Positions 4,312 through 32,200 of a DNA stretch of 34,060 nucleotides are shown piece after piece. The translations under genes and the position numbers were made by a program. The notes beneath the pieces were generated by a model. It worked only from the letters and a program-made list of their open reading frames with translations, did no database searches and was not told where the DNA came from. Every line of letters begins with the position of its first letter. The stretch's first letter is position 1. This DNA is from Spirirestis rafaelensis WJT71-NPBG6 (GTDB taxonomy: Bacteria > Cyanobacteriota > Cyanobacteriia > Cyanobacteriales > Nostocaceae), in contig JAHHID010000075.1 in the NCBI GenBank assembly GCA_019359015.1, positions 1 through 34,060 on the forward strand. The letters run 5' to 3'.

Positions 4312-4791
4312 TTATCTCTGTTTGACGGATTTTTCGATTTTTACCTTATTTGTAGGTTCTGGCTGAAAACTTTGCCCAATCAGCATTCCCACACCTAACA
4401 GCGCTATCAGTCCACCTGCAATAGCTTTCGTTGATATCACTGGACGGTGCGATCGCTCGTACCTATTCATCAAATAAATGCACTGTTGCACCTGTAAAGG
4501 ATTGAGGTTGAACCACTCGCGAGACTTGGCAAGCTTGACATTTGAATTTTTAAAAACGCTGTGTAACTCAGCTTCAACATCCGCCATTCGCTCTACATAA
4601 ACTGTGTAGACAATTTCAATATCACAGCAAGGTTGTGCGCTTAATAGTTGATCGAGTCTGTTTTCTGGCGATCGGGATAAACCTATTTTGTACCTTCCGA
4701 TCAGCACACCTGGGATTATTCCCCCGTAGCCGATCGCTCTCATTAAGTAGATTTTTCCCGGTACATTATCATCGCGTTGCTGGTAAGACAT
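4312..4791 (-). CDS. T5orf172/GIY-YIG-like protein with C-terminal membrane segment
   Basis: The 159-residue protein starts MSYQQRDDNVPGKIYLM and has GRYKIGLSRSPENRL, then AELHSVF and SREWFNL. This is the pattern of the T5orf172 (MUG113) branch of the GIY-YIG nuclease superfamily: the YKIG strand, the conserved Arg, the Glu-x-x-Leu-His helix and the EWF strand. After residue 122 a hydrophobic segment AIAGGLIALLGVGMLIGQSF predicts a membrane anchor, which is unusual for a nuclease. It lies 72 bases after the ParM-like gene on the same strand. A hairpin with a conserved loop occupies that gap. Two more copies exist on the plus strand (18915 fragment, 19408 truncated), each preceded by the same hairpin. 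A DNA-cleaving role is known for GIY-YIG relatives but is not proven for this subgroup. Confidence 0.75.
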   Translation of the reverse strand: MSYQQRDDNVPGKIYLMRAIGYGGIIPGVLIGRYKIGLSRSPENRLDQLLSAQPCCDIEIVYTVYVERMADVEAELHSVFKNSNVKLAKSREWFNLNPLQVQQCIYLMNRYERSHRPVISTKAIAGGLIALLGVGMLIGQSFQPEPTNKVKIEKSVKQR

Positions 4792-11881: not shown

Positions 11882-14486
11882 ATGCTAATTCAAGACAGTA
11901 GCGACAATTTAAACATAAATCAAAGTAATAATACAAGTGTACCACATCATTGTGTTACACCGGAAAAGGAAGGCAGATTTTTCAGAACCAAACATGAGAC
12001 TGAGTTTCAAGCCTCCGCAATCCATCCCGATCTATGGGAAAATTTCATTACGCTTGAGACAAATAAAGATGTTTTAGACTATCTCTTGATTGGGGATATA
12101 GAACGCCTTAACGCGGGTCGAGTTACTAAAAAGTGGCTAGATAAGTATGCAGGATTAGAGAGCGGCTGGGTTGTAGAGACGCTTGGTAGTGATTTCGTCC
12201 AGTTTAAGCCTGATAAGCCCAGAACCTATACCGACGCGGAGGGGAAAGAGAGAGTTATTAAGTATGAGTCACCAGCAAAATACCCCACTGATATAATCCG
12301 CCTGCGTCGCCTTCCTCGCTGGATAACTGGTGAGAAATCAGTAGAGGATTTCTACAATCATCCTGAACAAGGGTGGATTTGTGAGGGCGCGAAAAAACTG
12401 GGAGGTCTGTTAAGTTTGGGCTTGCCTGCGATCGCGCTTGGAGGAATTTTTAATACTCATGTTGGGAAGGGTGGGGAGGTAATCCCAGCTTTAGTTGAAT
12501 ACATTCGGCACAAAAAAGTAATAAACCTAGTCTTCGATGCGCCCGACAAGCTGAGTCAGCATTCTGCCCTAGAGAATTCTTACCGCAAACTTAAGAATCT
12601 AATACGAGAAATCAACCCGACTTGCGAAGTGAGAATATGCTGCTGGGAATGGTGGAAAGGTAAAGGTGTTGATGATGCGATCGCGTCTGGGCATCTTGAT
12701 AAAGCCTCGCTACTTAAATCAGCATTGCCATACTACGAAGCGTTGATACACTTGAACGGGAATCTTCCATGTCAGAAAAGAATTACTGGGAAGCGCTATC
12801 TCACATTGCAAGATATTGATAACTTTGAGGACAAATATATTGCTCTGAAAGCTGGAAAAGACAGCGGAAAAACAACCGTAACAGGGTCTTACTTGCGCTA
12901 TTTAGCCGCAACAGTTCCCATTCTTAACCCGACACATAGAATCAAGCTAGGACAACAGCTAGCGCCGCGACTAGGAACCCAGTATCTAAACGGAAGGCAA
13001 AAAACGACGGATCTTAAAAATAGAGTTACGCTCTGTATTAACTCAATGAATGTTGAGAATGTAGATCCTGCTGATTATTTGGGATGCGTAATTTTCTTAG
13101 ATGAAGTAGTTCAGTTGTGTGATTTTATTTTTTCAGGGACGCTTAAAAAAGCAGGCGAACTATTAAAGAATTTTCAGGTTTTATTCAGGACTTACGCAAC
13201 TGGCACATTTATCTGAAAACTGTCACATAGAATTAATATGGCTCTAAGGTTTATAAATCAATGCTTACAAGCATTTACGGCAAATTGAAATATATGTGCC
13301 AGTTGACCTTATATTGTGACGCTTGCGTAAGTCCTATTATTAACCAATGCAAGCAAAATAATAATTGCAGATGCCGATCTAGACTATAAATGCCTTACTC
13401 TTCTAGATGCTTTGATGCCTGGATGTGACTTTCTGAAAAACATCAAAATCTATGAATTCGAGAAAGACATAAAAAAAATTCCCATGAAAGTATTTAAAGT
13501 CAGCAACAAAAAAGTGGGCGCGGCTGTTTATGAATCTGCATTAGCTGCTTTGTTGCGTGGCGAAAAAATTCTTGTAATGGTGGATTCTCAAAGACCGACT
13601 AGCAAGCTATCAGCAGAAACTCTTAAAAGAGCGCTGGAAAAAGCTTATAAAGAGGCTACAGGCAATGATATAAGAGGTTTAGCTCTGTATGCCAAGGCAA
13701 GCAAGAATAAAGGTCATGAAGCCTCAAGAATAGTTACCGAGGGAATTCATGTAGTATATGAGTATGATTTTGTAGTATATACGACGGTGATCGGGACGGG
13801 CGTTAGTTTGGATAAAGATAAGTTAGATGAGCATCCTTACTTTGATCGAGTAATTGCCGGGTTCAGCGGAGCTATCAGCATCAACGACATTCTACAAGGC
13901 TTACACCGTTATCGTAGAGGCGTACCGAGAGAAGTTTATCTACCAAATAAAGGAATAGCAGCGCCTCACGCCGGAAGCAGCTACAGCGCCAAACAAAACA
14001 AGTTTCAAACAGACAAAATTAAAGCCGAAATCAAAGGTATCTACCTGGCTGTAGCGGAAGAGATTCCCGAAAGTGATGGTGTTAATTTACCGCTGCTGAA
14101 TTACCACTCTCAATTGAGGGCTTTTGCCAAGTACGAGTGCGATCATTATTTTGAATTATTCTGTAAACGTGCAGAGAAAGATTACGAATTAGTTGTTGAT
14201 GGAGAAAGTCAAAAAATTGAAATTCCGTCGGTCTTGGGCGAGACAGTAAAAGAGGTTTTTGAGGAATATGTAGAAACTACAGTTTCTGCAAAGATTATTG
14301 ATGATGAGGCACGGTACGAAGAAATAAAATCTAAGGATGTGGTACTGCAAAAAGAAGCAGAAGATTTGGAAAAAACTAACATTGCTAAAAAGTATCGGGT
14401 TGAATATGATGAAGCGCTAATAAATAAGGAATTGCTAACATTAGATTCTCAGATGGGCTATCACTCAGGAGTTGTCAATCATTACT
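11882..14486 (+). pseudogene. DUF3854 plasmid replication protein (CyRepA1-like), split by a MITE and lacking its C-terminus
   Basis: The first 434 codons (11882-13185) hold a DUF3854/TOPRIM-like region (GWICEGAKKLGGLLSLG, VFDAPDK), then a helicase core with Walker A LKAGKDSGKTT (~residue 325) and Walker B CVIFLDEVVQ. At 13186 a 151-bp MITE intervenes. Removing it and one 5-bp target copy restores the frame exactly (LLTNASKIIIADADLDY) and continues through TGVSLDKD and GLHRYRRGVPREVYLP, a helicase motif-VI-like stretch. Reading ends at a second MITE at 14487, so the C-terminal tail is missing. Cyanobacterial plasmid Rep proteins of this architecture are usually near 1,000 residues; about 816 remain. 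Open frames 11882-13216 and 13412-14548 would make two fragments whose ends are MITE-derived. Confidence 0.8.
13186..13336 (-). mobile_element. 151-bp MITE, copy 1, inside the replication gene
   Basis: The element has terminal inverted repeats AGGACTTACGCAA / TTGCGTAAGTCCT and a subterminal inverted pair AACTGGCACAT / ATGTGCCAGTT. It is flanked by the 5-bp direct repeat TTATT (13181-13185, 13337-13341). It encodes no transposase. It is the exact reverse complement of the copies at 14487 and 23017, so all three are recent. Confidence 0.92.
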
Positions 14487-14637
14487 TAGGACTTACGCAA
14501 GCGTCACAATATAAGGTCAACTGGCACATATATTTCAATTTGCCGTAAATGCTTGTAAGCATTGATTTATAAACCTTAGAGCCATATTAATTCTATGTGA
14601 CAGTTTTCAGATAAATGTGCCAGTTGCGTAAGTCCTG
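14487..14637 (+). mobile_element. 151-bp MITE, copy 2, with mismatched flanks
   Basis: This is identical base for base to the copy at 23017-23167. Unlike the other copies it has no target duplication: the five bases before are TTACT and the five after are AAAAA. The left flank is replication-gene sequence and the right flank is a TnpB tail. The element therefore marks a recombination or deletion junction. Confidence 0.9.
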
Positions 14638-15561: not shown

Positions 15562-18092
15562 TTATTTTTGTACCCCAGACTGAAGCCCTAACTCAGCATA
15601 TTTTTTAGGGTCAATAGCTTCCCATTGTTTGAATGTAGGAATACGATTTTGCCCCCCTTGCAACTTGTAGGTATAGCAGCTAGCTTCTATTGACTGAACG
15701 TAGGCTAATTTACCTTCTACCTTTACCCAAGTTCCTTCTTTAGGAAAACCAAACTGCTTAAGCGTAGAATTCAAATCCTTAAGCTTTTCCTCAGTTTCCT
15801 GCTCGTTAAAACAAATGGCATCCTTTAAATCTGTGACTAACCTTTGCTTGCCTACCTGATTTAAGCAAGTGTAACCGTTCGGCGTTATTTGAACAATCCT
15901 AACGACTTCAGAGGATATTTCGTCATCTGCTATTACTTCGATAATATCTCCTACTTTTGACACCTTAGCTTGACTTGTTTCTACAGCTTCGACTATTTTT
16001 GACGTACAGCTAAAACTGTCAAACTCATCAAGCCCTCCGTTTTGAAAGTTTACTTTATTGCAATTGATGATACCTGCAAAAGGCTCAAAAATGTTAGCAC
16101 TAGAGAATTTAATATTTTTCCAATGTGCTGTTCGACCTATTACTTTACCATTCATACGGCTTTGCTTTCTATCAACAAAGTGGTTAAATATTCGATCTTT
16201 CAGATGACTTACAAAAAGACTGTAACTAAAAGCCTTTAATCCTGAAGCATCACAAAAACTTTTGTAGTCGTCATATAGGAGCGCAGATTCTAACGTATCA
16301 GATTCATGCTCGGAAGGTGCTAGGCACATATCAATGAATTGAAGAACAGAAGAAGAATTTCGGGCTTGTTCTGCGTTTAACTCAGCCATTTGAGGTAAGA
16401 ATCGGGCAGTTTCTATTAACTCGTTTCTTTTTTCGGGGTTCATTCCTAAAGCCCAATTAATTATCTCAACCCTATAGGCTTTTAGTTTGTTTTTAAGCTG
16501 TGAATCAATCTTTTTTGTGTCACGCCTTTTTAACTTGAACTGAATCGATCTTCTCATCCACCCATCACCTGCATTTTCAATTTGAAGAGGTAAAACGCTA
16601 GCTAACAACCATTTACAGTTCCAGTGTCGTGTGTAGCCTGTGGCATTATTTAGCTGCCTTCCGCTCAATGGATGGTTATCTACTAATTTGTAAAAATCAC
16701 GTACCTCAGATTGAAATCCACCTAAATCTTCAAAATAACCTAGTCTAGCTTGGCTCAAATATTGATGCCTTTTCTCTGGTGATGAAACCTCTTTAAATGT
16801 TCCTAAACTGGTTACATTCTCAGGAGGTAGTAAGCTTTGTATTAAGCTTATTAATGTTCCTTTGCCGCCTCCGCTTTGTCCAATGAAATGTACGAAAAAA
16901 CCATAGGGGCGCTTGGATCAAGTATCATACTGATGACTGCTCTGATTAAGTCTAAATTTTCTTCTCCTAATGTTTCAGTTAAAAAGTTTAAGACAAACTC
17001 AGGGCAAGTCTCTGATTTCTCGTAATAACCTTCTATTTTGTGTGTAAGAAAGTAATCTTTTGAATGTGGCAGTAAACATCCTATTCTTGTGTCTAACACG
17101 CCGTTATTAAAGGTTATTAGATGCTGATTATGGTCTGAAGGTAGTTCTTTTGACAAAAAACTTCTGCAAAAAGACATTGAGTTTTTCTTGTTTCTTTCAC
17201 CTGCAAAGGTATACTCTGGCATTGTTTCGCCATCTGCTGTTTGTTCAATAGTATAAAGTTTTCTCAACTCCTCTGCAATCAATTTTTCTACTGTTATATC
17301 TGAAACATATTTCCAAATTAAATCTTTTTCACACCATTTGTAATAGTTATTATTAAGGACTATCCAGTCTTCATTTAGTTCAAACAAAATCCTTAATATT
17401 GTTTCCTCTGGCGTAGTTAGGACTTGATATAAATTGTTTGAAGCGTAATATTCTTTTTGCTCCTTTAGTCGATTTTTTCTTTTTAATTCTTGATTTACAT
17501 CATTTTCTATTTGTTCAATAATGACATGAGGATTTATTTGCTTACTTTCTAAATCTGTTATCCAATCCGCAATATCTTGTGCCGCTGGGCATTCTTTCCA
17601 AAATTTTGTGATGTCTAGTAGTACAACATTTATCCCAGAGTTTTCAGCAGTTTTTATGATTTTATTGGCTTTAGTTTTTCCGGCAGCATCATTGTCTGGC
17701 AAGACAACTAAGGTTTGAATTCCAGATTCTTTGAGTACTTCTATCAGTAACGGTTCTGAACCTGCTCTATTAGTGATTGTGGTGATGCCTAGTTTTTCCC
17801 TTGTAACATCAACGCACTTCTCCCCTTCGACCCATAGCGTGGTAGTGTGCCCTGGTAGCTCTTCGTATCTATAAGGCTTCCAAGTTGCCTGAGGTGCGCT
17901 AATTGATGCAGCCTTACTACACCACATAACCTTTTCTCTTTTGGTGCATTCAGAATCGGTGTAAAAATCGCGCCTAATAATTTCTTGCTCTTGAGCGTAA
18001 CTGTAAATAGTTTCGACGCAATTGTATTGAATAACTCCCTTTTTATTTGTGATATTACCCAAGTATTTTTTATCTGGCAGCTGTTGAGTCAC
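15562..18092 (-). pseudogene. Primase-helicase (TOPRIM + SF3, P4-alpha-like), one-base frameshift
   Basis: From GTG 18092 the first frame carries a TOPRIM-like domain (TLWVEGEKCVD, VVLPDNDAAGK), then a D5-N-like region. It stops at 16851, just after entering a wrong frame. Adding one T to the T6 run (minus strand, near 16896-16901) joins it to the second frame: FIGQSGGGKGTLI (Walker A), ARLGYFEDLGG (SF3 B motif) and WLLASVLPLQIENAGDGWMR (sensor/Arg finger). Stop is at 15562. The repaired protein has ~843 residues, and its domain order matches plasmid and phage primase-helicases that start replication. The 5' side abuts a truncated ParM copy. An in-frame stop at 18120-18122 leaves no better start, so the N-terminus may also be lost. 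A sequencing error in the T-run is the main alternative. Confidence 0.75.
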
Positions 18093-19407: not shown

Positions 19408-19794
19408 ATGGCTTACCAACAACGCGATGATAATGTACCAGGAAAAATCTATCTAATGAAAGCGGTCGGCTACGGGGGAATTATCCCAGGCGTGCTGATC
19501 GGGCGCTATAAAATCGGATTAAGTCGCAACCCTGATGCAAGACTTGAACAACTTCTAAGCGCTCAACCCTGTTGTGATATAGAAATTATCCACACTGTTT
19601 ATGTAGAAGATATGGCAAAGACAGAACACGAGTTACATTCTGTTTTTAGAAACTCAAACGTCAAGCTTGCCAAGTCTCGCGAATGGTTTAACCTTAATCC
19701 GCTCCAAGTACAGCAGTGTTTATGGTTGATGCGTCGTTATGAGGCTAGGCGGTGGAGTAGTTCAGAGATTCCCGTTAAAGCAATTGTGGGTGGA
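19408..19794 (+). pseudogene. T5orf172/GIY-YIG-like gene, 3'-truncated by IS5 debris
   Basis: The frame starts MAYQQRDDNVPGKIYLM and keeps the whole T5orf172 domain (GRYKIGLSRNPDARL, TEHELHSVF, SREWFNL). It is cut after VKAIVGG, where the sequence turns into an inverted transposase fragment. The membrane segment seen in the 4312-4791 copy is therefore lost, and the open frame runs on to 19854 in foreign DNA. SD-like AAAGGAT lies about 10 bases upstream of the start. The nuclease-like domain could still fold. Confidence 0.75.
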
Positions 19795-19795
19795 A

Positions 19796-20012
19796 GGCTT
19801 GGTCGAGCGCTCAAACTTAATCTTCCGCATGATCTGCGGGTATACCTTTTCTAGTTCCTGTGTCAGATGTTCTGGATGATAACCCTGGTCGAGTAGGATG
19901 GTAATTTTAGGAATGTTCATTGGTTTTGACCGGAAATAGCTGATGTTTTCCCTCAACATCTCCAGCAAGCCAGCATCATCGGAAACATTGGCTTTCGTGC
20001 AGTGTGTAAAGA
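19796..20012 (-). pseudogene. IS5-family transposase fragment
   Basis: On the minus strand the segment reads LPFFTHCTKANVSDDAGLLE and later ITILLDQGYHPEHL. This closely matches the middle of the IS5-family transposase encoded at 20870-21424 (GFPFFTHCTQANISDD, TTILLDNGYHP). Only about 72 residues remain, containing the second catalytic Asp. One edge interrupts the T5orf172 gene; the other meets GGTAATACCAATA. Confidence 0.8.
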
Positions 20013-20587: not shown

Positions 20588-20869
20588 ATGTATTTAAGTA
20601 GTTTAACAGATGAAGAGTGGTTAATTATTGAACCATTATTACCTAAAAAGAAGCTGACTCGTCCACCTACATGGAGTAAAAGACAAATTTTAGATGGCAT
20701 CTTTTATCAACTGAAAAATGGCTGTAATTGGGCTGACTTACCGAAGGATTTGCCGCCCTATTCCACAGTTTTTTGGCATTACAAGCAGTGGCGAAGTGAT
20801 GGATTGATTGAGGATATCATGGAGATTTTACATCACAGAGTCCGAAAAAAAAAGGAAGAAAGCCTATGA
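20588..20869 (+). CDS. IS5-family transposase, N-terminal part (orfA)
   Basis: The 93-residue frame MYLSSLTDEEWLIIEPLLP... is the N-terminal DNA-binding DUF4096-like domain, with FYQLKNGCNWADLPKDLPPY. It ends at TGA 20867-20869 after a nine-A run. The second part starts at the very next base in the same frame. Confidence 0.85.
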   Translation: MYLSSLTDEEWLIIEPLLPKKKLTRPPTWSKRQILDGIFYQLKNGCNWADLPKDLPPYSTVFWHYKQWRSDGLIEDIMEILHHRVRKKKEESL

Positions 20870-21424: not shown

Positions 21425-21490
21425 ATCCCAAATGGGTTCTATAGAACTTGTATAAAGGGTCAAAGCTATTTTATGACTCACATTTGGCTC

Positions 21491-21772
21491 TCAATTAAAA
21501 TATTTCTTTATTACCTGTTCAAAAAAGATATTATATAAACTTAACTCACTAAAAACACGTTTATCTAAATTCCTTTTTTCATCCTTATCTATAGTCTTTT
21601 TCTTAGCAGCTTCTTTCTCAGCAGCTTCTTTTAGCAATGTCTCAAAACGAGCTTCGTAAGCTTCTTTTCCAAGTGTTGCTTTTATAAGTTCCTCAAGTTC
21701 ATCTTGCGGATCGCTTTTCGCAAATAATTCTTCTGGAAGTGCTCTAGGATCAGCTTCGTCATCTTCTATCAT
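21491..21772 (-). CDS. Acidic hypothetical protein, 93 aa
   Basis: I prefer ATG 21772 because AGGA lies about nine bases upstream; an earlier ATG at 21790 has no such site. The protein is acidic at its N-terminus (MIEDDEADPRALPEELFA). It has an Ala/Glu/Lys helix in the middle and ends SLYNIFFEQVIKKYFN. No domain is recognised. Confidence 0.45.
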   Translation of the reverse strand: MIEDDEADPRALPEELFAKSDPQDELEELIKATLGKEAYEARFETLLKEAAEKEAAKKKTIDKDEKRNLDKRVFSELSLYNIFFEQVIKKYFN

Positions 21773-21888
21773 TTTTATTTTCCTAAGCAAAATCTCTATA
21801 CTAAATTATAGCGTTTAATTATTTTGAGAATTTTACTTCGGATAAATTACCTAAGACGACCCCTGCGGGAAGTTTTACCAATGTCAAA

Positions 21889-21906
21889 ATCCGTCAAACA
21901 GAGATA
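21889..21906 (+). pseudogene. Trace of a T5orf172 3' end
   Basis: ATCCGTCAAACAGAGATA matches exactly the end of the T5orf172 gene at 4312-4329, giving the terminal residues KSVKQR before a stop. It may be the lost tail of the truncated copy at 19408-19794, separated from it by the IS cluster and two small genes. Confidence 0.35.
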
Positions 21907-22072
21907 GTGCGGAAATACGATTTATCAGAGGATGTAGCAGAATTAAAATTTAACTACACTAAGTCGATAAAGCATTAATAGTATTAAAGTGTATATACTT
22001 TTCTATGTACCAAGATATTTGGTTATCTATAGCGATAATTGTTATATTCTATACTTGAAGCTTTATATCAAA

Positions 22073-23734
22073 ATGAGTAAAAATACTTTTAAATTTTTGT
22101 CACGTAAATTAGCGTCACGTCTTTTACTATTAATAACCATCCTTAGTATTACTATTGTTGGTATTCGTATTCTTTCTCAGTTTAATTGGAGCGGGTTCGG
22201 AGAAGATTCAAATAAATCAATAAGTACAGAAGAAATAATAAAAGATGGAAAGTTTATAACTACTAAAAGAACAACTATTGTACATGAGGAATCAGCAAAA
22301 AGCCTTTGGGATTGGTTAGAATTATCTAGTGTTTTAGCAATTCCTATTGTTTTATATTTGTTTCAAACTAACGAAGAACGACGGTCTCAAAAACGAGTTG
22401 AACTTCAAAAAAAGCAGGCTGACGAATTAGCAAAAACTGAAGTAAAGATTGAAAAAGATAAAGCTGAACAATTAGAAAAAATTGAAAAAGATAAAGCTGA
22501 ATCTAATTTACGCGAAGAGGCTTTTCAAATTTATATTGACCGAATGTCAGAAATTTTAACTAACAAAACAAATCAATCTCAATTATTTTCTGATGAATAT
22601 AAAGACAATCCAGTAAAAGATATAGTACGCATAAGAACAACAACTATATTACGAAGACTGGAAAAAGATAAAGAGCGTCAATATAGAATTTTACATTTTT
22701 TAGACGATGCCGAACTTTTAGGATTCTTGTTCCGTAATGCTAACCTTGGCAGTATTAACCTTAGCGGCTTAAGCCTTCCTAACATCGACTTTACTGGAGC
22801 TAATCTTAGTAAAGCTAATCTTAGTGAAGCTAATCTTAGTGATTTATACCTTTGTAGCACCAATCTTAGTGGAGCCAATCTTAGTAATACCAACTTTAAT
22901 GGCGCTAATCTTAATTATGCTAATCTTAGTAATAGTAATCTTAGTAATGCTAACCTTAGTAATACTAGTCTTGATAATGCTAATTTTAGTGATGCTAATC
23001 TTAATGGTGTTAATCTTAGGACTTACGCAAGCGTCACAATATAAGGTCAACTGGCACATATATTTCAATTTGCCGTAAATGCTTGTAAGCATTGATTTAT
23101 AAACCTTAGAGCCATATTAATTCTATGTGACAGTTTTCAGATAAATGTGCCAGTTGCGTAAGTCCTGAATCTTACAAATTCTACTATGTTAAATACAAAA
23201 TTTATAAATACTAACTTAAATAATACAAACCTTTTAAATGCAATAACTTGGGATGAAACAGAAATGGAAAATAATTATATAATAATGTCTGGAGAAGATG
23301 AATTTGGACAACTTACTGATAACTTAATATCAAATAAAACAGATTTTTCTGGCGCAAGCCTAAATAATGCTAACCTAAGATATACTAATTTTAAAGCTGC
23401 TACTAATCTAACACGACAACAATTGGAAACAGCAAAAAACTGGGATAATGCTATATATAATAATGAATTATTTAATAAGTTGGGATTGCCAAAATCATTA
23501 CAATCCATTATATTTTCTATGTCTAGAGACATGAATGATGATGTTAATGTCGAAAACCTTATTGGCTACCAAGTTGAAGTGAGAAATTACATTAATCATG
23601 AAACAAAAACCATAATTAAAGGTGAAATAACTGGTTTTTGTAGATATAATACCTACGTGAATGTAAAAACTTCAAATGGAGAACAGTTAGACAAATTGCC
23701 CCTAGATGAAGTTTACGTTTACCAGAACCAATAA
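22073..23734 (+). pseudogene. Membrane-anchored pentapeptide-repeat protein, split by a MITE
   Basis: From ATG 22073 (MSKNTFKFLSRK) the protein has two membrane segments, LLLLITILSITIVGIRIL and SVLAIPIVLYLF. A charged coiled coil with a duplicated KIEKDKAEQLEK unit follows. From about residue 225 come pentapeptide repeats of the A(N/D)LSx type (ANLSKANLSEANLSDLYL). A 151-bp MITE at 23017-23167 interrupts the repeats. Removing it and one AATCT copy restores the frame (GVNLTNSTMLNTKFINTNLN). After more repeats the protein ends in a non-repeat domain (VENLIGYQVEVRNYINHETK...). Repaired length is about 500 residues. Pentapeptide repeats form a right-handed quadrilateral helix; the role of this protein is unknown. 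In the present sequence two fragments would be made. Confidence 0.82.
23017..23167 (+). mobile_element. 151-bp MITE, copy 3, inside the pentapeptide gene
   Basis: It is identical to copy 2 and the exact reverse complement of copy 1. It is flanked by the 5-bp direct repeat AATCT (23012-23016 and 23168-23172), which proves insertion by transposition. Confidence 0.92.
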
Positions 23735-23884
23735 ACATCCTAAAGTACTTCCTACATTTCTGAAGTAAATTAATAAACTACCCCATCTGCCACCACAGCT
23801 AAGAAGGGGTATTATTTTCGTGTAAATAAAAATATCAGTAAAAAATACTTCACATACGAAATCCATCAAACATAAATAGGTTGC

Positions 23885-23941
23885 GAGAACCGCAGTTCTC
23901 ATAAGCAAAATTACTCAACCCGTCGTGACTGGCGGGTTTTG
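23885..23941. terminator. Two hairpins downstream of the pentapeptide gene
   Basis: GAGAAC-CGCA-GTTCTC at 23885-23900 and AACCCG...CGGGTT at 23917-23938 followed by TTG. The second resembles an intrinsic terminator. The 23735-24062 interval otherwise holds nothing I can call. Confidence 0.45.
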
Positions 23942-24062
23942 TCATAGCCATTCCAGCGCTCAATATGTCGGGAAATATAATTTAGACGACATATCCCTTA
24001 ATCCTCAATACAAAATGCTTTGAGCCATTTCAAGCCAGTTAAAATATGTCATATTTAACCGC

Positions 24063-24375
24063 TCACTGTTTTTTCTTCAATACAGGAGTTAAGTGTTCTG
24101 GAATTCCAGCGAGTCGAATAGCAGAACACCCAATTTGGTAAGAAAACTCAATTGATTTTCCTGCCCCCAATGCAGTGTAAAAACCAATAGCAAATTCGAT
24201 TTGTGGTTCAAAATCTAGTAGCGCTTGAGAAACGTCTCGCACACGCACAGCCCACGAGACTAGCGCCAGTAAAATCTGCGCTTCGGATATCTGCACCGCT
24301 AAAATTTACACCCTCAAGGTTTTGACCTTTAAAAGAGCGCCCTCTGAGATTTTGACCGGAGAAGTCGTGGGGCAT
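24063..24375 (-). pseudogene. Chimeric remnant: pentapeptide start joined to a CHAT-type protein tail
   Basis: ATG 24375 opens pentapeptide repeats MPHDFSGQNLRGRSFKGQNL, EGVNFSGADI, RSADFTGASL. Near 24250 this gives way, in another frame, to FAIGFYTALGAGKSIEFSYQ, IGCSAIRLAGIPEHLTPVLK. I know that second part as the conserved C-terminal end of cyanobacterial CHAT (caspase-like) effector proteins. The catalytic His and Cys regions are gone. The product is a fused relic of two genes. Confidence 0.6.
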
Positions 24376-24460
24376 GGTAGGTATAGTCAGATGTTTGTAC
24401 TTAAGCTTTGAATATGCAATTTTTCAGATTATAAACCTACTGTTGGTCATTAAATTGCAC

Positions 24461-24523
24461 TTTGTTGACGTAAATCCTATGCCTGACACAGAAACGGTTT
24501 CGAGGGATTAACGCGGCCTGTGG
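24461..24523. repeat. Right copy of the perfect 63-bp inverted repeat
   Basis: It is the exact reverse complement of 2588-2650 and carries only the last 17 codons of the integrase gene (on this strand ...DVNPMPDTETVSRD). There is no trace of the rest of the gene to its left. It lies between the CHAT relic and a stretch without clear genes. Confidence 0.85.
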
Positions 24524-24829
24524 GAGATATCGGTCGTTAGACGACATTTCTCTTAAGCCCAAGCGATCGCACAAAGTATAGAAGCAAATCTATACAAAAA
24601 ACACTACAAACTCATCCAAGGTTTTTGTCCGCCACCGCATCAAATGGGACTCAAACAAAACTGCCGACGGAAAGCGCAACGCACCACGCAACTACAACGC
24701 TTTTACGCTTCTCAGCAATGATGTGGCGATCGCCCAAAATTTCAAAGGTCAGTTTGGGACTTTGGGCTTTCTAGGACGAATGGTGAGGATTTAAACTAAA
24801 AACTAAGGACGCTATATTTTTAAGCAATT
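24524..24829. other. Gap with weak coding traces
   Basis: One plus-strand frame near 24575-24720 reads SIEANLYKKHYKLIQGFCPP and onward to RTTQLQRFYASQQ before a stop. It looks like a gene end, but has no start or family match. I call nothing firm here. Confidence 0.25.
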
Positions 24830-25231
24830 ATGATTGCACAAAACGAGGAAGGATTACAACGATGGCAGAACACTAATATCGATGTCTTGAAACATCAAAA
24901 AGCCATCTGTTTTTTAGTAGCTGGACTTTCAATAGACGATACAGCTAAAGAGTTAGGGGTATCAACTAGAACACTTGAAAGGTGGTTTAAACATCCTGAA
25001 TTTAATCAAAATTTAGGTCTAGCCATTAAGCATGTTTACGTGTCTTCCTTTGCTAAAGCAGTAGGTTATGTTGACGAAAGCATGAATGTATTGATGGGAA
25101 TTATCAGAGATGAGAGTACACTTACGAGACACCGCATAGATGCTATTAAACTGCTACTTGATTTCACAGCAAAAGGCTATCAGGAAACATTTAAAAACCA
25201 AACTAATACTGAGGAAAACACTGTTTCGTAA
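24830..25231 (+). CDS. Helix-turn-helix protein, terminase-small-subunit-like
   Basis: The 133-residue protein has a homeodomain-like HTH near residues 25-60: HQKAICFLVAGLSIDDTAKE followed by LGVSTRTLERWFKHPEF. The rest is helical (GIIRDESTLTRHRIDAIKLL). This layout, HTH then a helical tail with a hydrophobic IKLLLDF, is seen in phage terminase small subunits (phBC6A51-like) and in small plasmid regulators. No large terminase is present, so a regulatory or plasmid role is more likely. It is followed 16 bases later by an 89-residue gene and then a terminator, so the two form an operon. Confidence 0.65.
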   Translation: MIAQNEEGLQRWQNTNIDVLKHQKAICFLVAGLSIDDTAKELGVSTRTLERWFKHPEFNQNLGLAIKHVYVSSFAKAVGYVDESMNVLMGIIRDESTLTRHRIDAIKLLLDFTAKGYQETFKNQTNTEENTVS

Positions 25232-25246
25232 GGTATTAGAAAACAG

Positions 25247-25516
25247 ATGCGTGTACTGAATGAAGGTTTGCTACTTAACCAAACTGCAAAAGGATATCCT
25301 AAGCAAATAGCAGAAGAAATAATAGATAAAAACTCTCGCAAAGTCTGGGCTGAGTTGTTCCCTGATACACCCTACCCCGAAGAAAATGCCCCATTGATGT
25401 CACCGGAGATGCGGGAGCGAGTAGCGGCTGAAATTGCACGAAGACGATACGAGGCAGAGCAACGGATTTTGAACCAAACTCAGAACCCTGAAACCGAGCC
25501 GGACAGCGTACCATAG
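25247..25516 (+). CDS. Hypothetical protein paired with the HTH gene
   Basis: The 89-residue protein (MRVLNEGLLLNQTAKGYPKQ...) has a helical, basic C-terminal half MSPEMRERVAAEIARRRYEA and an acidic Pro-rich tail. No domain is recognised. It follows the HTH gene by 16 bases and is closed by a strong terminator at 25573. Confidence 0.5.
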   Translation: MRVLNEGLLLNQTAKGYPKQIAEEIIDKNSRKVWAELFPDTPYPEENAPLMSPEMRERVAAEIARRRYEAEQRILNQTQNPETEPDSVP

Positions 25517-25572
25517 AGAAAAACCTATTATCCTAACGACTAGGCAAAGCTAAAGTCTATGCAGTATTATTA

Positions 25573-25595
25573 CCCGCACCGCTGGCGGGTTTTTT
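25573..25595 (+). terminator. Strong intrinsic terminator
   Basis: CCCGC-ACCGCTG-GCGGG followed by TTTTTT. It closes the HTH operon before the telomere resolvase promoter region. Confidence 0.9.
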
Positions 25596-25612
25596 CTGTG
25601 CCTTGTCATCCT

Positions 25613-25702
25613 GTTACGTAACCCATAGATAATTCTCTATCATATAACCAGTTAAACAAAAAGAAGTTATATAACCAGATTGTTAACAAATTCATAACTA
25701 GT
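25613..25702. promoter_or_regulatory. Repeated dyads upstream of the telomere resolvase gene
   Basis: Two 10-bp palindromes of form GTTAYRTAAC occur: GTTACGTAAC (25613-25622) and GTTATATAAC (25666-25675). ATATAACCAG is repeated directly at 25642 and 25669, and ATAACTAGTTA follows near 25694. They fill the 140 bp before the resolvase start. They may be binding sites for autoregulation, or they resemble half-sites of the telomere. No long perfect telomere palindrome is visible here. Confidence 0.4.
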
Positions 25703-25738
25703 TAGATAATATATAGAAGTCAGCCAACAACGAACAAG

Positions 25739-27502
25739 ATGAGCAACGCACTAAAAGACCGGGTACAAGAGCTTTACGAAGCGACAAAAGACTTAAAATC
25801 CTTTGAAGAATTAGCCCCACATTGCGAATCTTTCAATAACTGGATAGCCGACAGCAAGCTAAGTATTAATACTCTAGGTACTAAATTAAGCGCCGCAGGA
25901 TTCTACAAGTTGTTTAACGCTTTACCCCTAGAGCAAGGCAAAAATGCTGAATCAATCCCTAAACACGATGAACACGGCAACGTTAAAAGCTACCAGCTAA
26001 AGCACTATGTCTTAACTCTGTGTGGCTTAAAGCCTCAAGATTGGGCAACCCGGAACGAAACCGACCGCGTTACAAATCGTCTAGCAGAAGGTCAGGAAGT
26101 AGACCCTGACTCCTACATTGAAGTAACAGGTAAACTATTAGAAAGTAGCGACCCACACGAATTAGCCGTTGGGTTGATTGCTGCCACAGGTCGCCGTCCC
26201 CACGAGATATTAGCTCGTGCCGTTTTTACTCCTGTACCTGACGAACCCTACAAAGTCAGTTTCAAGGGACAAGGAAAAAAGCGCGGTAAGGCAGTTGAAT
26301 TCATGATTTCAACCCTATTCCCTGCTAGCCACATCATTAAACAGTTGAATAAGTTGCGTAGAGAAAGTAGCACCAAAGCTTTACTAAAAGAAGTTGCTAA
26401 AGAGTTTCCTACAGATATAACCGCTCAAAACGCAGCTATAGAAAGCCGTCGCGGTAATTCACTGCGTCGTGTTGTACAAGAATATTTTGGCGGTCGCGAT
26501 ACAAAAAAACCCGTACTTAGCTTTCGCGCTGAGTCAGACCAAAACGACTGTAAAGCCCTACGTGCAGCCTGTGCAGCGTTACTAAGTGAAAGAGACTGTG
26601 ACGGTGGGGTAGGTTCTAAAATGCTCTTTTACGGTCGGTTTCTAGGGCATGTTGATAACTCTGTAATTCCCACTGACAAAGACTTGCAAAATATTGTCAC
26701 GTCTCTCGGATACGCTGATTATTACGTCACACAAGCGGTTCCTTTTCCTCCTGCGCCTGATATTGAAAAAACGATACGAGTTGGGCTTACTCATGAAATT
26801 AGAGACACCATCAATGACCTAAAGGAAGAGTTAGAAGCTAGCACTCAAGCTGAGGTTATTGAAAAGCTTATTGATTCTCACCTTAATCGGGCTGAGGGTG
26901 TCCGCGCTCTACATGCCGAAATTGCCCAATTAAAAGCCAATAACCAACAATTACAGGAGAAACTAGCTATGTCAGAATCCAACCCTACCGCAGACATTCA
27001 AGCCATTATTGCTCCACTGGTAGCCAGAATAGAAGCGCTAGAGGCAGCCCAAGCAAATACATCTGCAACCAAACCTCAACCCACGCAACCAAAAGAAGAA
27101 ATCAACTGGGAAAATGTTAGCAATACTGACTTATGGACAAATCTAGACGGCACAAGCAACCGAGCCAAAGGAAGCGCAGAAGAAAAAATCAGGCGCTCTT
27201 TTGAGGCGATTACCACTTACAACGACACTATCGCCACAGGAGATAACGACCGAATTGCAATTACTAACTTAGGACTCAGAGCTTTATCAGGTGTGAATGG
27301 TTTAGTAGTTGGCGAATGGATAAAAGCCCACACAGACGAAATAATTAGCCACCATGCCAAATATGAAATGTTGAACCCAAAAGACCCGAACAAAGTTGAA
27401 ACCTACTTTAACAAATCACTTGGAAATGACAAAATTAACAAAATTCTTGAATTGATAAACAAAGAACTACTTGATGGGGTTGCTTTGAAAAAATCAAGCT
27501 GA
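25739..27502 (+). CDS. Telomere resolvase (protelomerase) candidate
   Basis: The 587-residue protein has the catalytic layout of telomere resolvases, tyrosine-recombinase relatives that cut a replicated telomere palindrome and seal each end into a hairpin. Visible residues are Arg in ATGRRPHEIL (152/153), Lys in KGQGKKRGK (176-184), the paired Lys and Arg in CKALRAA (K272, R275, the i/i+3 spacing of TelK), His in GRFLGHVD (H304), and a Tyr in GYADYYV (Y325, 328 or 329). The His-Tyr spacing is longer than in TelK. The N-terminal ~110 residues are helical. After residue 380 come a coiled coil and a C-terminal helical domain (LRALSGVNGLVVGEWIKAHT), likely DNA-binding HTH. It is a single gene after a terminator. 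A single-A change near 27488-27493 may have shortened its C-terminus by about 30 residues. Confidence 0.8.
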   Translation: MSNALKDRVQELYEATKDLKSFEELAPHCESFNNWIADSKLSINTLGTKLSAAGFYKLFNALPLEQGKNAESIPKHDEHGNVKSYQLKHYVLTLCGLKPQDWATRNETDRVTNRLAEGQEVDPDSYIEVTGKLLESSDPHELAVGLIAATGRRPHEILARAVFTPVPDEPYKVSFKGQGKKRGKAVEFMISTLFPASHIIKQLNKLRRESSTKALLKEVAKEFPTDITAQNAAIESRRGNSLRRVVQEYFGGRDTKKPVLSFRAESDQNDCKALRAACAALLSERDCDGGVGSKMLFYGRFLGHVDNSVIPTDKDLQNIVTSLGYADYYVTQAVPFPPAPDIEKTIRVGLTHEIRDTINDLKEELEASTQAEVIEKLIDSHLNRAEGVRALHAEIAQLKANNQQLQEKLAMSESNPTADIQAIIAPLVARIEALEAAQANTSATKPQPTQPKEEINWENVSNTDLWTNLDGTSNRAKGSAEEKIRRSFEAITTYNDTIATGDNDRIAITNLGLRALSGVNGLVVGEWIKAHTDEIISHHAKYEMLNPKDPNKVETYFNKSLGNDKINKILELINKELLDGVALKKSS

Positions 27503-27741
27503 ATCTACAAATTTCAAACAACGTCGATTAGACAAACGCCAAGCCAAACGCATCTTAATTAGTCTTGACAAAAAGCTTAAGACCGTGCATTAACGGTAGA
27601 ACAAGAATTTATTGGGGGAATTGGTTTTTCAGGGGTTAAGCGATCGCTAACAAACTTGTCAATAAGCGGGCATCAACGCGATTATTTTGAACTTTATTGA
27701 CATTTAAAGGCTCTTGTTGACAAGAATCGTTTGCCCTGTAT
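27503..27741. other. Possible lost C-terminal codons of the resolvase, then AT-rich gap
   Basis: From 27489 to 27593 a frame one base off from the resolvase reads KNQAESTNFKQRRLDKRQAK and RILISLDKKLKTVH before TAA. It is basic and looks coding. Beyond 27593 I see no gene, only HIP1 sites. Confidence 0.4.
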
Positions 27742-27753
27742 ATACTTTAGGAC

Positions 27754-27951
27754 TAGCCCTTTCAAGGTGAACGTTTGTACTATGAAATAAATAATGTTTT
27801 TCACCCAATTTTGGTATTTTGGCGATTGCGATCGCTTAATTTCCAGTCCAAAAATTTGGAGTTTAATCCATAATTTCTTTCTTCAATTGCAGCCGATGCT
27901 TGAAATGCGGTAAAAAATTGGATAGTACATATGCTCACCTTGAAAGGGCTA
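27754..27951. mobile_element. 198-bp MITE with ~30-bp TIRs and 12-bp target duplication
   Basis: The ends TAGCCCTTTCAAGGTGA / TCACCTTGAAAGGGCTA continue as imperfect inverted repeats to about 30 bp. The flanks carry a 12-bp direct repeat, ATACTTTAGGAC (27742-27753 and 27952-27963). The insertion lies inside the left end of the neighbouring 168-bp MITE. No transposase is encoded. Confidence 0.85.
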
Positions 27952-27957
27952 ATACTT

Positions 27958-28125
27958 TAGGACTTACGCACTGTACAAATTAGCCATAATATGGGTTACG
28001 GTTTTTGGTCGTTTCAGGCGCTTCGCATAACCCCGATTTATTCCCATATTTGCGATCGCTGAGTGCTAAACACGGCTGAAATACCCAAATTGCGTGTAGT
28101 ACTTATGTACGATGCGTAAGTCCTA
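27958..28125. mobile_element. 168-bp MITE sharing TIRs with the 151-bp family
   Basis: The ends TAGGACTTACGCA and TGCGTAAGTCCTA match the 151-bp MITE termini. The interior is different (contains GGTCGTTTCAGGCGCTTCGC). The 5-bp flank TACTT is repeated at 27953-27957 and 28126-28130. The shared ends and duplication length suggest the same transposase moves both families. Confidence 0.85.
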
Positions 28126-28176
28126 TACTTATAAAATGGTAAAATTTTTACTTCCTACCTTTAGGGATAATTGTTT

Positions 28177-28332
28177 ATGAAAGAATTTAAGTCCTGCACA
28201 ACAGCAAGAACTTGAGCAAATGCAAGTAGAACGGTTAAGACAGTCAATAGAACAAGGGTATGTAATACAGAATATGAAAAATTGCATGAATGGTCTTGGT
28301 TATAATTGTGGACGCAGCCTGTTCGATCCATA
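28177..28332 (+). pseudogene. Short frameshifted gene, unknown family
   Basis: ATG 28177 gives MKEF. The frame then shifts and continues SPAQQQELEQMQVERLRQSI, EQGYVIQNMKNCMNGLGYNC, GRSLFDP and a stop. The second part is clearly ordered, but I cannot name it. A partial element end (AATGCGTAAGTCC at 28343-28355) follows. Confidence 0.35.
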
Positions 28333-28342
28333 AGTAGTATTT

Positions 28343-28863
28343 GTCAATGCGTAAGTCCAGATTTCTTCTTTATCTAAGCAAACTACAAAATATTACAGAT
28401 TTTCTAAAAATGTAGTATATTACTGAGAAGGAAGTTATATCAATAAGTTTCTACAACTGACATTTGAAACGGCAGTTGTCTTGTTCGTTTCGGACACCCC
28501 CGACGCACTCCGCTATCATCGAAGTTTTTCCGAAGTTGTCATAATTTCCTACAAGATCGGTTTTTGGTCGTGACCCGACAGGGATTTTTGGGCGTTGCAG
28601 AATAAAAATATGAATGAGAGCGATCGCTAAAAATAACCCTTGACGTTATGAGTCTTTGAGGGAACGAAACAGGTCTGCCCTATTAAGGGATCTGTTAAAC
28701 TAGACTGCCCCCTCACCAGAGCGACTTAGCTTAACAAATTACTTATTAGCAATCTTTAAATTCTAAAAGTCGCATTATTTGGGAACTTAAAGTAATAGAA
28801 AAGTTACTATATATCTATAAAACTAGAAACTTACGTATTTATACCCATTTTTATAAATTTGTT
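28343..28863. other. Gap without genes; one partial transposon end
   Basis: It begins with AATGCGTAAGTCC, an orphan right end related to the MITE TIRs. A loose dyad GAAACG...CGTTTC lies near 28465-28490. Nothing else can be supported before the Trypco1 gene. Confidence 0.4.
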
Positions 28864-29202
28864 GTGAAACGCATAGTAGAATTTCCTCTTGAAAGTGGCG
28901 AATCCATTCTTGTTGAAGTAGACGAAGCAGCACAGACCGACGATCGCATCGGTTTGCGAGACCAACTGGTTGATAAAGCTACACAAACTTTCGAGTCAGC
29001 CCTAGAAACCGTCAAGCCGATAGCTAATGCGATTATTACCAAAATAGGCAGCATCAAACAACCGGCAGATGAAGTGGAAGTCAAGTTTGGCATCAAGATT
29101 AGCGCTCAACTTGGGGCGGTTGTAGCTTCTGGCAATAGTGAAGTCAACTATGAAATCACCCTGAAGTGGAAAAGAGACTCACAAAATGGCAGCACCCCTT
29201 GA
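28864..29202 (+). CDS. Trypco1 (CU044_2847-family) protein
   Basis: The 112-residue protein starts at GTG 28864: VKRIVEFPLESGESILVEVD, later VKFGIKISAQLGAVVASGNS and EVNYEITLKW. This is the trypsin-co-occurring domain 1, a small beta-rich module found beside trypsin-like peptidase genes in predicted conflict systems. It overlaps the next gene by 17 bases, so the two are co-translated. By comparison with other such pairs it may be the substrate, regulator or sensor of the peptidase; that is inference. Confidence 0.85.
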   Translation: MKRIVEFPLESGESILVEVDEAAQTDDRIGLRDQLVDKATQTFESALETVKPIANAIITKIGSIKQPADEVEVKFGIKISAQLGAVVASGNSEVNYEITLKWKRDSQNGSTP

Positions 29203-32200
29203 GTCATCTATTGTCAGGATTTACTCCAACGGTGGCAGAGTAATTGGTGCTGGTTTCTTAGTTTCCCAAAACTATATCCTCACCTGCGCCCATGTGGTAG
29301 CTGATGCCTTGGGACTTCCTAGAACAACACCTCAAATGCCAGATGCAGAAATCACCTTGGATTTTCCGTTAGTTGCACCCAAACAACTGCTCAAAGCTAA
29401 GGTTGTTTTCTGGCTACCTGTAAATCCTAGTGTAAAATTAGAAGATATTGCCGGATTAGAGTTAGTACTTTCTCCCCCAAATCAGGCTCTAATGGCACCA
29501 TTAATTACATCTGATGAATGGGCGGGACATCCTTTCCGAGTATTTGGTTTTCCCGCAGGACAACCAGATGGTGTTTGGGCTACCGGCGTTTTACGCGGAC
29601 ACACGGGTAAAAGTTGGGTGCAACTAGAGGATGAGAAACAAACAGGTTATGGATTAAAGCCCGGTTTCAGTGGTGCGCCAATATGGGATGGTGAGCTTCA
29701 GGGTGTAGTAGGAATAGCAGTAGCGGCAGACATCAACCAACCAAATGCTAAAGTTGGGTTTATGATTCCCACACGGGTGCTGGTGATAGCATGGCCTATA
29801 TTGAGTAAGCAAACTATTGCTTCGTGTCCATATCGTGGTCTATTTGCTTTTCGGGAAGAAGACGCACGATTTTTCTTTGGGCGCGAGATTTTCACCCAGA
29901 AACTTGTAGATACAGTACAAAAACAATCATTCATAACAGTAATTGGGGCTTCTGGTAGTGGTAAGTCTAGTGTAGTGTTTGCGGGTTTGATTCCTAATTT
30001 ACGCCAACAAAGCAATTGGCTAATTGAGTCCTTTCGCCCAAAAACTCATCCTATAGATGAACTTGCATCAGTAATTGTGCGCCTACGTGAACCAGAGAAG
30101 GGAAAGACGGAACAGGATATTGAGGCGGGAAAGTTAGCTTGTAGGTTGCGATCGCAACAAGTAGCAGCACATACTGTTTTATCCCGAATTTTGTCAGAGA
30201 ACGATAATAAGCGGCTGTTACTGGTAGTCGATCAATTTGAGGAACTTTACGCTTCTTGCTCAGATATTCAAGAGCGCCAATTATTTTTAAATCAACTATT
30301 AGAAGCGGCTAAACTGGTAGAGAATTTTACCCTTTTGCTGACCTTGCGGGCTGACTTTTTGGGATATGCGCTTTTAGATTATCGCTTTGCCAATGCTTTG
30401 CAGAATGCTGATTTAAAACTTGCGCCGATGAACCAGCAAGAATTGCAGCAGGCGATCGCTCTACCTGCAAACAAGCAAGGGGTAAGGTTAGAAGAGGGTC
30501 TTGCAGAGCGAATTCTCAAAGCAGTAGTAAATTCACCAGGGAATTTACCATTACTAGAATTTACTTTGACACAACTATGGGCAGAACAGGAAAATCGCCA
30601 AATGACTCATGCTGCTTATGAAGCAATTGGCGGTGTAGAAAAATCTTTGGCGAACCATGCAGAAGCCGAGTTTGCCAAGCTGAAGCCAAAGGAACAACAA
30701 CAAGCGCAGCAAATATTTGTCCAGCTAGTGCGTCCTGGCGAAGGGACAGAAGACACACGCCGACTAGCTACTAGAAATGAGGTAGGAGATAACTGGGATT
30801 TGGTTAAGCGCCTAGCTGATGCGCGGCTAGTGGTAACTGGACTTAATGACACTGCTGGTAAAGAAAAAGAAACAGTAGAGATTGTCCATGAAACCTTGAT
30901 TCGGGAATGGGGACAACTGCATAGATGGATGGAGAGCGATCGCTCTTTCCGTACTTGGCAAGAATTATTGCGAACCAGAATGCGTCAGTGGGAAAATGCC
31001 GGACAAGATGAAGGGCCATTGCTGCGAGGTGTCCCCTTAGCAGAAGCGGAAAATTGGCTCCACCAGCGCCAAGATGAATTGAGCCAAGCAGAGCAAGATT
31101 TTATCCAGCAGAGTTTAGCATTGCGCGATCGCGATCGTCAGCAAAAAGAACGCCGTCGCAAGCTTACTCTATTTGGGCTGACAGGTGGTTTACTAGTAGT
31201 CTCAATGCTGGCTGCGATCGCTTTTTGGCTACGATGGACAGCCCAAGTTGAAGCCTCTGGAGTCACTGCTTTAAGAAATTTTGAGTCTGGTGCTGGAGAA
31301 ATAGAAGCTTTAGTATCAGCAATGGAAGCTGGACAAGAAGTTAAAAAGATGGCTTTTTGGAATAGCAATTGTTTGCATGACTGTCCAGCCACAAGTCCTC
31401 TGCTAGCTTTGCAGAAGATTCTCGATAATATTCATCAAACAAATCAAATCAATACTTACCAAAGAGGTGTAAATAGTATCCGTTTTATTCAAAATAAAAC
31501 GAGTAAACAAAACGAAGAGTTAATTGTTGCTGGTGGAGAAGATGGAACGGTCAAGTGGTGGGATTATCAGAACAAGAAATTGAAAACGTTGAAAAATTCA
31601 AAACTGGATAAGAACAGTATCAAAAGTATCGATTTTAACGAAAATCAAACAATATTAGCGACATCTGCAAGTAATGGTTGGGTAAAACTGTGGGATGTCT
31701 CAAAGATGTGGAATTTTTTATCACCAGATCAGAATTGGTCTCCACCTTGGATAACATCTATACATCATCAATGTCAAATAATAGAATACGACTTAGCAAA
31801 AGAGGATGATAAATGTAGTGTTAACAATGTTCGTTTTCTTCCCAAGATAAATCTGTTGGCAACAACTGGAGATGATGGCTACGTCAGACTGTGGACTCTC
31901 GAAGGGAAAATTGTTAAAACAATACTTGCTCACAGAGGTAGTATCAAAAGCCTTAATTCCAACCCTTATAATAACCAACAATTTGCCACGGCTGGAGAGG
32001 ATGGACTAGCAAAGCTTTGGGATATTAATCAGACAGAACCGATAGCAATATTTAAAGGTCATCAATGCAATGTCAAAGACACTAAAAAATGTAGTGTTAA
32101 CAGCGTCTGGTTTCACCCCAAAGAAAAGCAACTTGTGACAGCTGGAGATGATGGTACCGTCAGGCTGTGGGATTTTTCAGGAAAAGAACTGGCAGAAAAA

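Follow-up and report, generated by a model that had tools for sequence, protein, structure and literature searches.

The window analysed here, that is, the whole 34,060-nucleotide stretch covering positions 1 to 34,060 of contig JAHHID010000075.1 (called C75 below) of Spirirestis rafaelensis WJT71-NPBG6, carries a gene of the telomere resolvase family at exactly the position where a sequence-only reading of the same DNA had placed it (Table 1). The gene is intact, with a full-length reading frame and all catalytic residues, and 6.5 kb of DNA with unrelated genes separates it from the contig end. Downstream of it (28864-33424), a Trypco1 (trypsin-co-occurring domain 1) protein and then an nSTAND1/WD40 protein are encoded, a combination of a type known from conflict systems. 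The terminase-like ORF on its upstream side has relatives that adjoin the resolvases on contigs C74 and C102 of this genome, and the backbone block further upstream is common to contigs C53, C108 and C113 and in part to NIES-22 plasmid8, PCC 7716 p8 and pNPM9. A repeat of roughly 155-162 bp is found at 13183-13344, 14487-14639 and 23009-23170, with 12 matches of 89-100% identity in the own-genome contigs examined.

Table 1. Features of the window discussed in the text, with their positions.
Feature	Position	Strand	Basis or remark
Telomere resolvase gene, 587 aa, ATG start	25739..27502	+	PF16684 match, predicted fold, helices
Codon of catalytic Arg153 (second R of GRRP; TelK Arg275, TelA Arg255)	26195..26197	+	
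Codon of catalytic Lys180 (first K of GQGKKR; TelK Lys300)	26276..26278	+	hhalign, invariant in 31
Codons of K272-x2-R275 (TelK K380-x2-R383)	26552..26563	+	hhalign; R275 invariant
Codon of catalytic His304 (TelK His416)	26648..26650	+	hhalign, conservation
Codon of Tyr325, candidate nucleophile (TelK Tyr425)	26711..26713	+	hhalign, invariant in 31
AACYRGTT box upstream of the gene, same 8-bp palindrome as by telomeres	25646..25653	.	
Second AACYRGTT box	25696..25703	.	Ends 35 bp before the start codon
Phage terminase small subunit-like ORF	24830..25231	+	phrog_2538, E=3.4e-10; upstream of resolvase
MUG113/T5orf172 (GIY-YIG-type) gene	4312..4791	-	Backbone gene of related plasmids
MUG113/T5orf172 backbone gene, second copy	19408..19854	+	
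Backbone block, ORFs of 379, 775, 273 and 102 aa	4864..9952	-	
Broken plasmid replication gene, related to CyRepA1-annotated proteins	11882..14548	+	Interrupted by the 162-bp repeat
162-bp repeat inside the replication gene	13183..13344	.	
Broken D5-type primase gene	15562..18092	-	Frame change near 16900; intact 975 aa relative on C108

The profile search that had been proposed for the protein turned out positive, PF16684 matching residues 119-309 with E=7.8e-26 and a score of 91.2 bits, where the cut-off is 27. Compared by hhalign with aligned sequences of TelK, TelN and the VP882 enzyme, the protein reaches a probability of 99.1, and the alignment pairs Arg275, Lys300, Lys380-x2-Arg383, His416 and Tyr425 of TelK with Arg153, Lys180, Lys272-x2-Arg275, His304 and Tyr325 of the window protein, in agreement with the Arg / Lys / Lys-x2-Arg / His / Tyr set suggested earlier. 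The catalytic arginine is assigned to the second R of GRRP because the TelA R255A chains read GRAP. When the window protein is aligned with 30 homologs, drawn from 40 without stops, Arg153, Lys180, Lys181, Arg275, His304, Tyr325 and Tyr328 are invariant, and Lys272 is nearly so, being replaced in 2 of the 31 sequences. Since Tyr325 and Tyr328 are both invariant, the identity of the nucleophile has to be inferred; Tyr325 is the best candidate, with Tyr328 as the alternative. With either residue, the distance from the histidine (21 or 24 residues, respectively) is longer than the 9 of TelK, as had been noticed, and hhalign places 12 extra residues between His and Tyr relative to TelK. The RefSeq annotation of the gene in plasmid records is 'protelomerase family protein'. 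Among phage records, only the two of VP882 match at E<=0.001, and the IMG/VR viral contigs contain neither a relative of the protein family, as judged by alignment, nor a match to one strict palindrome.

The protein is predicted to consist of an N-terminal helical part, the PF16684 catalytic domain (119-309), the 21-residue His-to-Tyr stretch, a coiled coil (about 370-438) and a small all-helical C-terminal domain (about 475-577). In the AlphaFold model, built from 31 sequences, the catalytic part has block pLDDT values mostly of 80-97, and of 66-80 in places. The eight best Foldseek matches in the PDB are TelA, TelK or ResT (E from 2e-8 to 2.2e-4), and tyrosine recombinases (XerA, lambda integrase) come next with E of 0.09 or worse. 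The proposed structural comparison with TelK and TelA was thus also positive: the catalytic fold is nearer to TelA, TelK and ResT than to other tyrosine recombinases, with an overlay on TelA that is loose (TM to target 0.55-0.57, rmsd 8-9). The C-terminal coiled coil of the sequence-only reading is recovered as predicted helices 370-411 and 417-438, together with a sub-threshold Pfam coiled-coil match. Its 'HTH-like' assignment of the last domain was not confirmed. This part, modelled from residue 452, is confidently predicted as a small helical domain (pLDDT 86.6), but searches of Pfam and PDB gave nothing convincing, and in PDB and BFVD there was no match at E<=0.001. ORFs of about 320-350 aa that match the C-terminal domain only (about residues 450-573) are found in other genomes, four in G366 and two in G377, so the domain may also occur by itself.

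One palindrome, GTCYGTTAATTTAAATTAACRGAC or a similar form of it, is found 0.4-9 kb from many of the homologs, and there the assemblies fold back to their end, as would be expected of hairpins. By tblastn, the gene is present in 22 plasmid records, in 11 of which at least 80% of the protein is matched; pNPM9, shown as 80%, makes 12. The motif stands at the end or at the centre of a fold-back in seven of these 12. The pNPM8, pNPM9 and pNPM10 records start and finish at the palindrome centre (AAATTAACRGAC...), pNsp_d runs 9-10 bases beyond the centre at each end, NIES-22 plasmid8 has perfect fold-backs of 98 and 146 bp at its two ends, and pC052_G and pC052_H have long fold-backs centred on the palindrome. 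In NIES-4106 plasmids 4 and 7, both record ends are reached by terminal inverted repeats, which measure 2832 bp (99.97%) and 1491 bp (100%), respectively, and the motif is absent. It is important to point out that the gene alone does not imply a linear replicon, since three of the 12 records show no linear end, namely PCC 7716 p8 (examined whole), p057_I (deposited as linear; 50 of 159 kb examined) and NIES-4106 plasmid2 (44 of 312 kb examined).

NIES-22 plasmid8, NIES-4106 plasmids 4 and 7 and pNPM9 are listed as circular. The records AP018215.1, AP018302.1, AP018305.1 and NZ_CP026691.1, so listed, have ends that are inverted repeats or hairpin read-throughs, and as judged from these ends they are probably linear. 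In the accessible part of PMC5987646 (2018), pNPM9 is called linear, hairpin plasmids with AAATTAACRGAC ends are described for Nostoc sp. N6, and the hairpins of pNPM8, 9 and 10 are inferred from reads of two library types; the words 'telomer' and 'resolvase' are absent from that part of its main text. The accessible part of PMC3558466 holds a single mention of cyanobacteria as having hairpin-ended linear chromosomes.

The plasmid records bear on the possibility that the protein is an ordinary tyrosine recombinase, i.e. an integrase or dimer resolvase that acts on circular DNA. Such a role would agree with the tyrosine-recombinase catalytic core, with the homolog on the circular PCC 7716 p8, which has no terminal repeats, and with a shortened homolog on the circular, mobilizable UHCC 0926 pn6. 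However, the clear gap by which TelA, TelK and ResT lead XerA and lambda integrase among the PDB fold matches, the hairpin-type fold-backs near homologs, and the hairpin ends published for three gene-carrying plasmids (PMC5987646, accessible part) make this explanation very improbable.

A scan of GTDB genomes gave 45 homolog loci, all in genomes named as cyanobacteria, and 43 of them were checked for contig ends. The downstream contig end is included in 35 loci, where we find seven palindrome fold-backs, one CATG-centred variant (Spirulina), two truncated half-sites, and 25 ends with none of these; at upstream contig ends the palindrome occurs in 0 of 11 cases. The contig-end fold-backs stay perfect up to at most 1 base from the end, as expected when sequencing has passed round a hairpin. 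In a sample of 290 genomes of the order, the pattern GTYNGNTAATTTAAATTANCNRAC occurs in four, all within the 20 gene-bearing genomes, and the reversed control pattern has no occurrence among the matches listed. The nominal Fisher p of 1.7e-5 for this association comes from a sample that was not blind, as G000, G075 (=L061) and G421 (=L044) had already shaped the motif, and the independent parts are the positive genome G435 and 270 gene-free negatives. The strict motif is absent from 16 of the 20 gene-positive genomes and so accounts for only part of the family. The records G075:C53 and L061 are the same, as are G421:C58 and L044, and each is counted once. The case for hairpin telomeres rests mainly on the fold-backs, not on the order-wide motif count. 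G075:C53 carries the motif at each end, the two copies being about 22.75 kb apart, and the gene lies close to one of them, while G435 is an exception to the layout, its two genes being more than 18 kb from its telomere.

In the Spirirestis genome itself, contig C102 opens with TGGTTATGTCCGGTAATTTAAATTACCGGACATAACCA, a perfect 38-bp palindrome, which is followed by 5.6 copies of a 19-bp tandem repeat. Inward of these, and all pointing toward the telomere, are the gene for a large terminase subunit, an ORF resembling a small terminase subunit (58% identity to the phrog_2538-matching ORF of NIES-22) and a resolvase paralog with 85% identity to the window protein. Among 177 surveyed ends of the 91 contigs C53-C143 (both ends of each contig, or the left end alone for C96-C100; C1-C52 were covered by the pattern searches), the fold-back to the contig end is seen for C102 alone; it has nine AACYRGTT boxes within 600 bp of this end, and the others have 0 or 1. 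A second C102 telomere may be missing from the assembly, because the shortest contig is 10,149 bases long and the other C102 end is a repeat common to several contigs. A half-site search allowing up to two mismatches returned the C102 site on both strands and one 2-mismatch place on C28, the control giving one match per strand. With three mismatches allowed, the looser palindrome is found at 32 places, compared to 37 for the reversed control, and since it is no commoner than the control, only the exact C102 site was counted. G+C-rich palindromes near contig ends (for example on C53, C86, C90, C91, C108 and C122), which lie in multicopy repeats and do not fold back, were also discarded as telomeres.

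The last group of palindromes could be taken to mean that palindromic contig ends in general are assembly artefacts or transposon ends. However, these G+C-rich sequences have neither a fold-back to the contig end nor the telomere motif, whereas the telomere palindrome is found in several genera, is confined to gene-bearing genomes within the order sample, and is present at both ends of G075:C53. In addition, the Nostoc N6 hairpins are backed by two library types (PMC5987646, accessible part). We therefore regard an artefactual origin as extremely unlikely. The palindrome check proposed for the whole genome has thus yielded a hairpin-type palindrome, at the C102 end. The earlier claim of a linear replicon or plasmid-prophage in this strain can be kept for C102, with its fold-back end and terminase genes, and does not carry over to the window contig, which has no telomere and broken replication genes. 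The description as a 'linear plasmid-prophage' also fits the terminase genes beside the C102 resolvase and the N15-related replication protein on NIES-22 plasmid8 and pNPM9.

The AACYRGTT box was chosen by eye from the window and telomere sequences. In the 300-bp regions immediately before 38 homologs its density is 3.33/kb, and at more than 1.5 kb upstream it is 0.103/kb, a 32-fold enrichment, compared to ratios of 0-3.1 for five control motifs. The exact box is present in 18 of the 38 upstream regions (18 of 30 without near-duplicates) and absent from the other 20. On the telomere side, 15 of 17 stretches of 600 bp contain between 1 and 9 copies, the two without it being L061 and L078; two of the 17 are NIES-4106 ends that do not have the palindrome motif. 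We infer that the boxes are a shared putative binding site, through which the resolvase would control its own gene.

The occurrence of the boxes both in the promoter and beside telomeres, and the additional coiled coil and C-terminal domain, the latter found without the enzyme in other ORFs of G366 and G377, could also be accounted for if the protein had been domesticated as a regulator that binds telomeres or boxes and no longer cleaves DNA. However, the catalytic residues are kept in the 31 aligned sequences (with Lys272 replaced in two), and such a loss of function is very improbable.

It is important to note that the genome contains eight PF16684 genes (7.07 Mb, 143 contigs), two each on C53 and C74 and one each on C75 (the window), C102, C108 and C113, against one visible telomere, although short ends may be missing from an assembly whose smallest contig has 10,149 bases. 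Of 291 genomes sampled evenly across the phylum, 14 match at E<=0.001, 13 of them over the cut-off, and as none of the other 13 matching genomes has more than four matches, eight genes are unusual. Protein comparison gives three groups, C75+C102+C74a, C53a+C74b and C53b+C108+C113, the first with identities of 84-86%. The paralog dN/dS values are 0.05-0.10 (0.05 and 0.08, with dS above 1, for the window gene and its two near paralogs), although dS exceeds 1 in six of the seven pairs, which is near saturation, so that the low ratios are no proof of present-day constraint.

No telomere was found on C75 in the fold-back and palindrome examination, and around the gene (23500-30000) there are no inverted repeats of at least 12 bp within 60 bp. 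Because of the missing telomere and the broken replication genes, the window contig is read as a decayed relative of the hairpin plasmids that has retained an intact resolvase gene. Long shared synteny was not seen for window positions 15000-34060 in 19 relatives, the longest match being below 1 kb among the matches listed; for C102:1-20000 the matches listed in the same 19 relatives are likewise short or repeat-like.

This raises the question of whether the window copy is itself a relic, i.e. an open gene without substrate or role on a plasmid that has decayed or integrated. The replication gene split by the 162-bp repeat, the frameshifted primase, a transposase fragment at 20870-21424, the position of the gene away from any telomere or contig end, and the lack of long matches in the relatives are all in line with this. 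On the other hand, the full-length ORF with its catalytic residues and the paralog dN/dS values speak against it, as do the two boxes remaining in the promoter and the 85%-identical paralog, which has a telomere substrate in the same genome. We consider the relic scenario a real possibility, but not the probable one.

Taken together, it is highly probable that the protein belongs to a cyanobacterial branch of the hairpin telomere resolvases (protelomerases), with an origin in linear, hairpin-ended plasmids seemingly derived from N15-like phage-plasmids; this judgement includes the role of the boxes and an action in trans. The family, the catalytic residues, the fold, and the proximity of the palindrome to homologs, among them the 85%-identical paralog, are read directly from sequence and prediction. 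In the mechanism we propose, replication of the plasmid would join its copies head to head through the palindrome centred on TTAATTTAAATTAA. A resolvase dimer would then cut both strands near the palindrome centre with Tyr325, and each cut strand would be folded back and rejoined, to yield two hairpin ends. The boxes at the telomeres and in the resolvase promoter would bind the enzyme, or a partner, and thus allow both telomere sensing and control of its own gene. The window copy, stranded on a decayed plasmid, would act in trans on telomeres such as that of C102.

Most detailed work on hairpin telomere resolvases concerns Borrelia, Agrobacterium and enterobacterial or Vibrio phages. Among the closest known systems, the Nostoc N6 plasmids pNPM8, 9 and 10 share backbone genes with the window and have resolvases about 50-52% identical to the window protein, with the difference that they carry telomeres while the window copy is off a telomere. 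TelK (phiKO2) and TelN (N15) have the same catalytic set, including Lys380-x2-Arg383. The phage-plasmid setting is common to N15/phiKO2 and the cyanobacterial elements, but the palindrome of N15 and phiKO2 is about 165 bp upstream of the resolvase gene, whereas in the cyanobacterial elements measured the gene usually points to a telomere 0.4-9 kb downstream. ResT of Borrelia (PDB 8vs5) has the same catalytic domain (profile E=2e-5, fold E=2.2e-4) with a sequence identity of only 14%, and its accessory domains differ from those of the window protein. TelA of Agrobacterium (PDB 4dwp, 4f41, 4e0z) shares the catalytic domain, the fold and the R-K-[K/Y]-R-H-Y set, with Tyr363 in place of Lys272 (PMC3558466, accessible part); compared to TelA, the window protein has a longer His-Tyr stretch, the coiled coil and the extra C-terminal domain, and it scores 32.7 bits with the TelA equivalog NCBIfam NF052462, below the cut-off of 800.

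Concerning the phage-plasmid relationship, phrog_4913 replication and terminase matches are found for NIES-22 plasmid8, NIES-4106 plasmid7 and pNPM9. A partial N15 Rep sequence, compared directly by BLAST, matches NIES-22 (2.3e-10) and pNPM9 (3.5e-6) and has no match in NIES-4106 plasmid7. Resolvase, RepA-type replication and terminase genes occur together in the relatives, while the window has a broken replication gene and, of the terminase, only the small-subunit-like ORF. The PHROGs scan (8/23 NIES-22 plasmid8 proteins and 8/35 NIES-4106 plasmid7 proteins) gave no portal, capsid or tail match, and one weak 'minor head protein' match (3.7e-4). The hairpin-type plasmids of about 21-23 kb, and C102, have terminase genes and no recognised capsid among the proteins tested; NIES-22 plasmid8, NIES-4106 plasmid7, pNPM9 and C102 are possible phage satellites.

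A wider picture can be put forward only tentatively, namely that filamentous cyanobacteria harbour widespread hairpin-capped linear elements with one telomere palindrome, shared boxes, self-repression of the enzyme and telomeres specific to its sub-groups. If so, some elements with a phage terminase and no recognised capsid genes would be linear plasmids or phage satellites, the promoter box would enable the enzyme to gauge the number of telomeres and to repress its own gene, and the three sub-groups formed by the eight resolvases would each act on telomeres of their own, in some cases in trans from decayed plasmids.

The Nostoc N6 hairpin plasmids with their AAATTAACRGAC end (PMC5987646, 2018, accessible part) and the 'protelomerase' annotation were already known. 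As far as our searches reach, the tie between enzyme and palindrome and its spread over several genera and this strain are new, and the same applies to the box, to the eight paralogs and to the N15-like set of genes in its reversed arrangement; in the open-access literature searched, we found no paper tying the enzyme to cyanobacterial hairpins. The hairpin plasmids of 2018 would thereby gain a likely enzyme, and for a type of linear bacterial DNA that has received little study, both the probable maker and a candidate target site would be at hand, with the suggestion that some plasmid records deposited as circular are linear. A photosynthetic branch that has a telomere sequence, accessory domains and a gene arrangement of its own would offer another natural design for comparison, and the short palindrome and the protein might serve as a DNA-capping tool.

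Finally, some observations concern PF16684 genes elsewhere. A match above the cut-off is also found in Synechococcus elongatus, a control genome, whose replicons are known as circular. In G027:C1, a 6.1 kb perfect palindrome with an odd centre and arms of 3079 bp (about 2110111-2116268; L104, centre 9190) lies inside a single 4.68 Mb contig and contains two inverted PF16684 genes; it is either a real palindromic insertion or an assembly fold-back. The right end of G075:C59 (L108, centre 10133) shows a second type of fold-back (CTTTCATTCCTTGTTCTCATGAGAACAAGGAATGAAAG) on a contig with a compact PF16684 gene, which suggests another resolvase-telomere pair.
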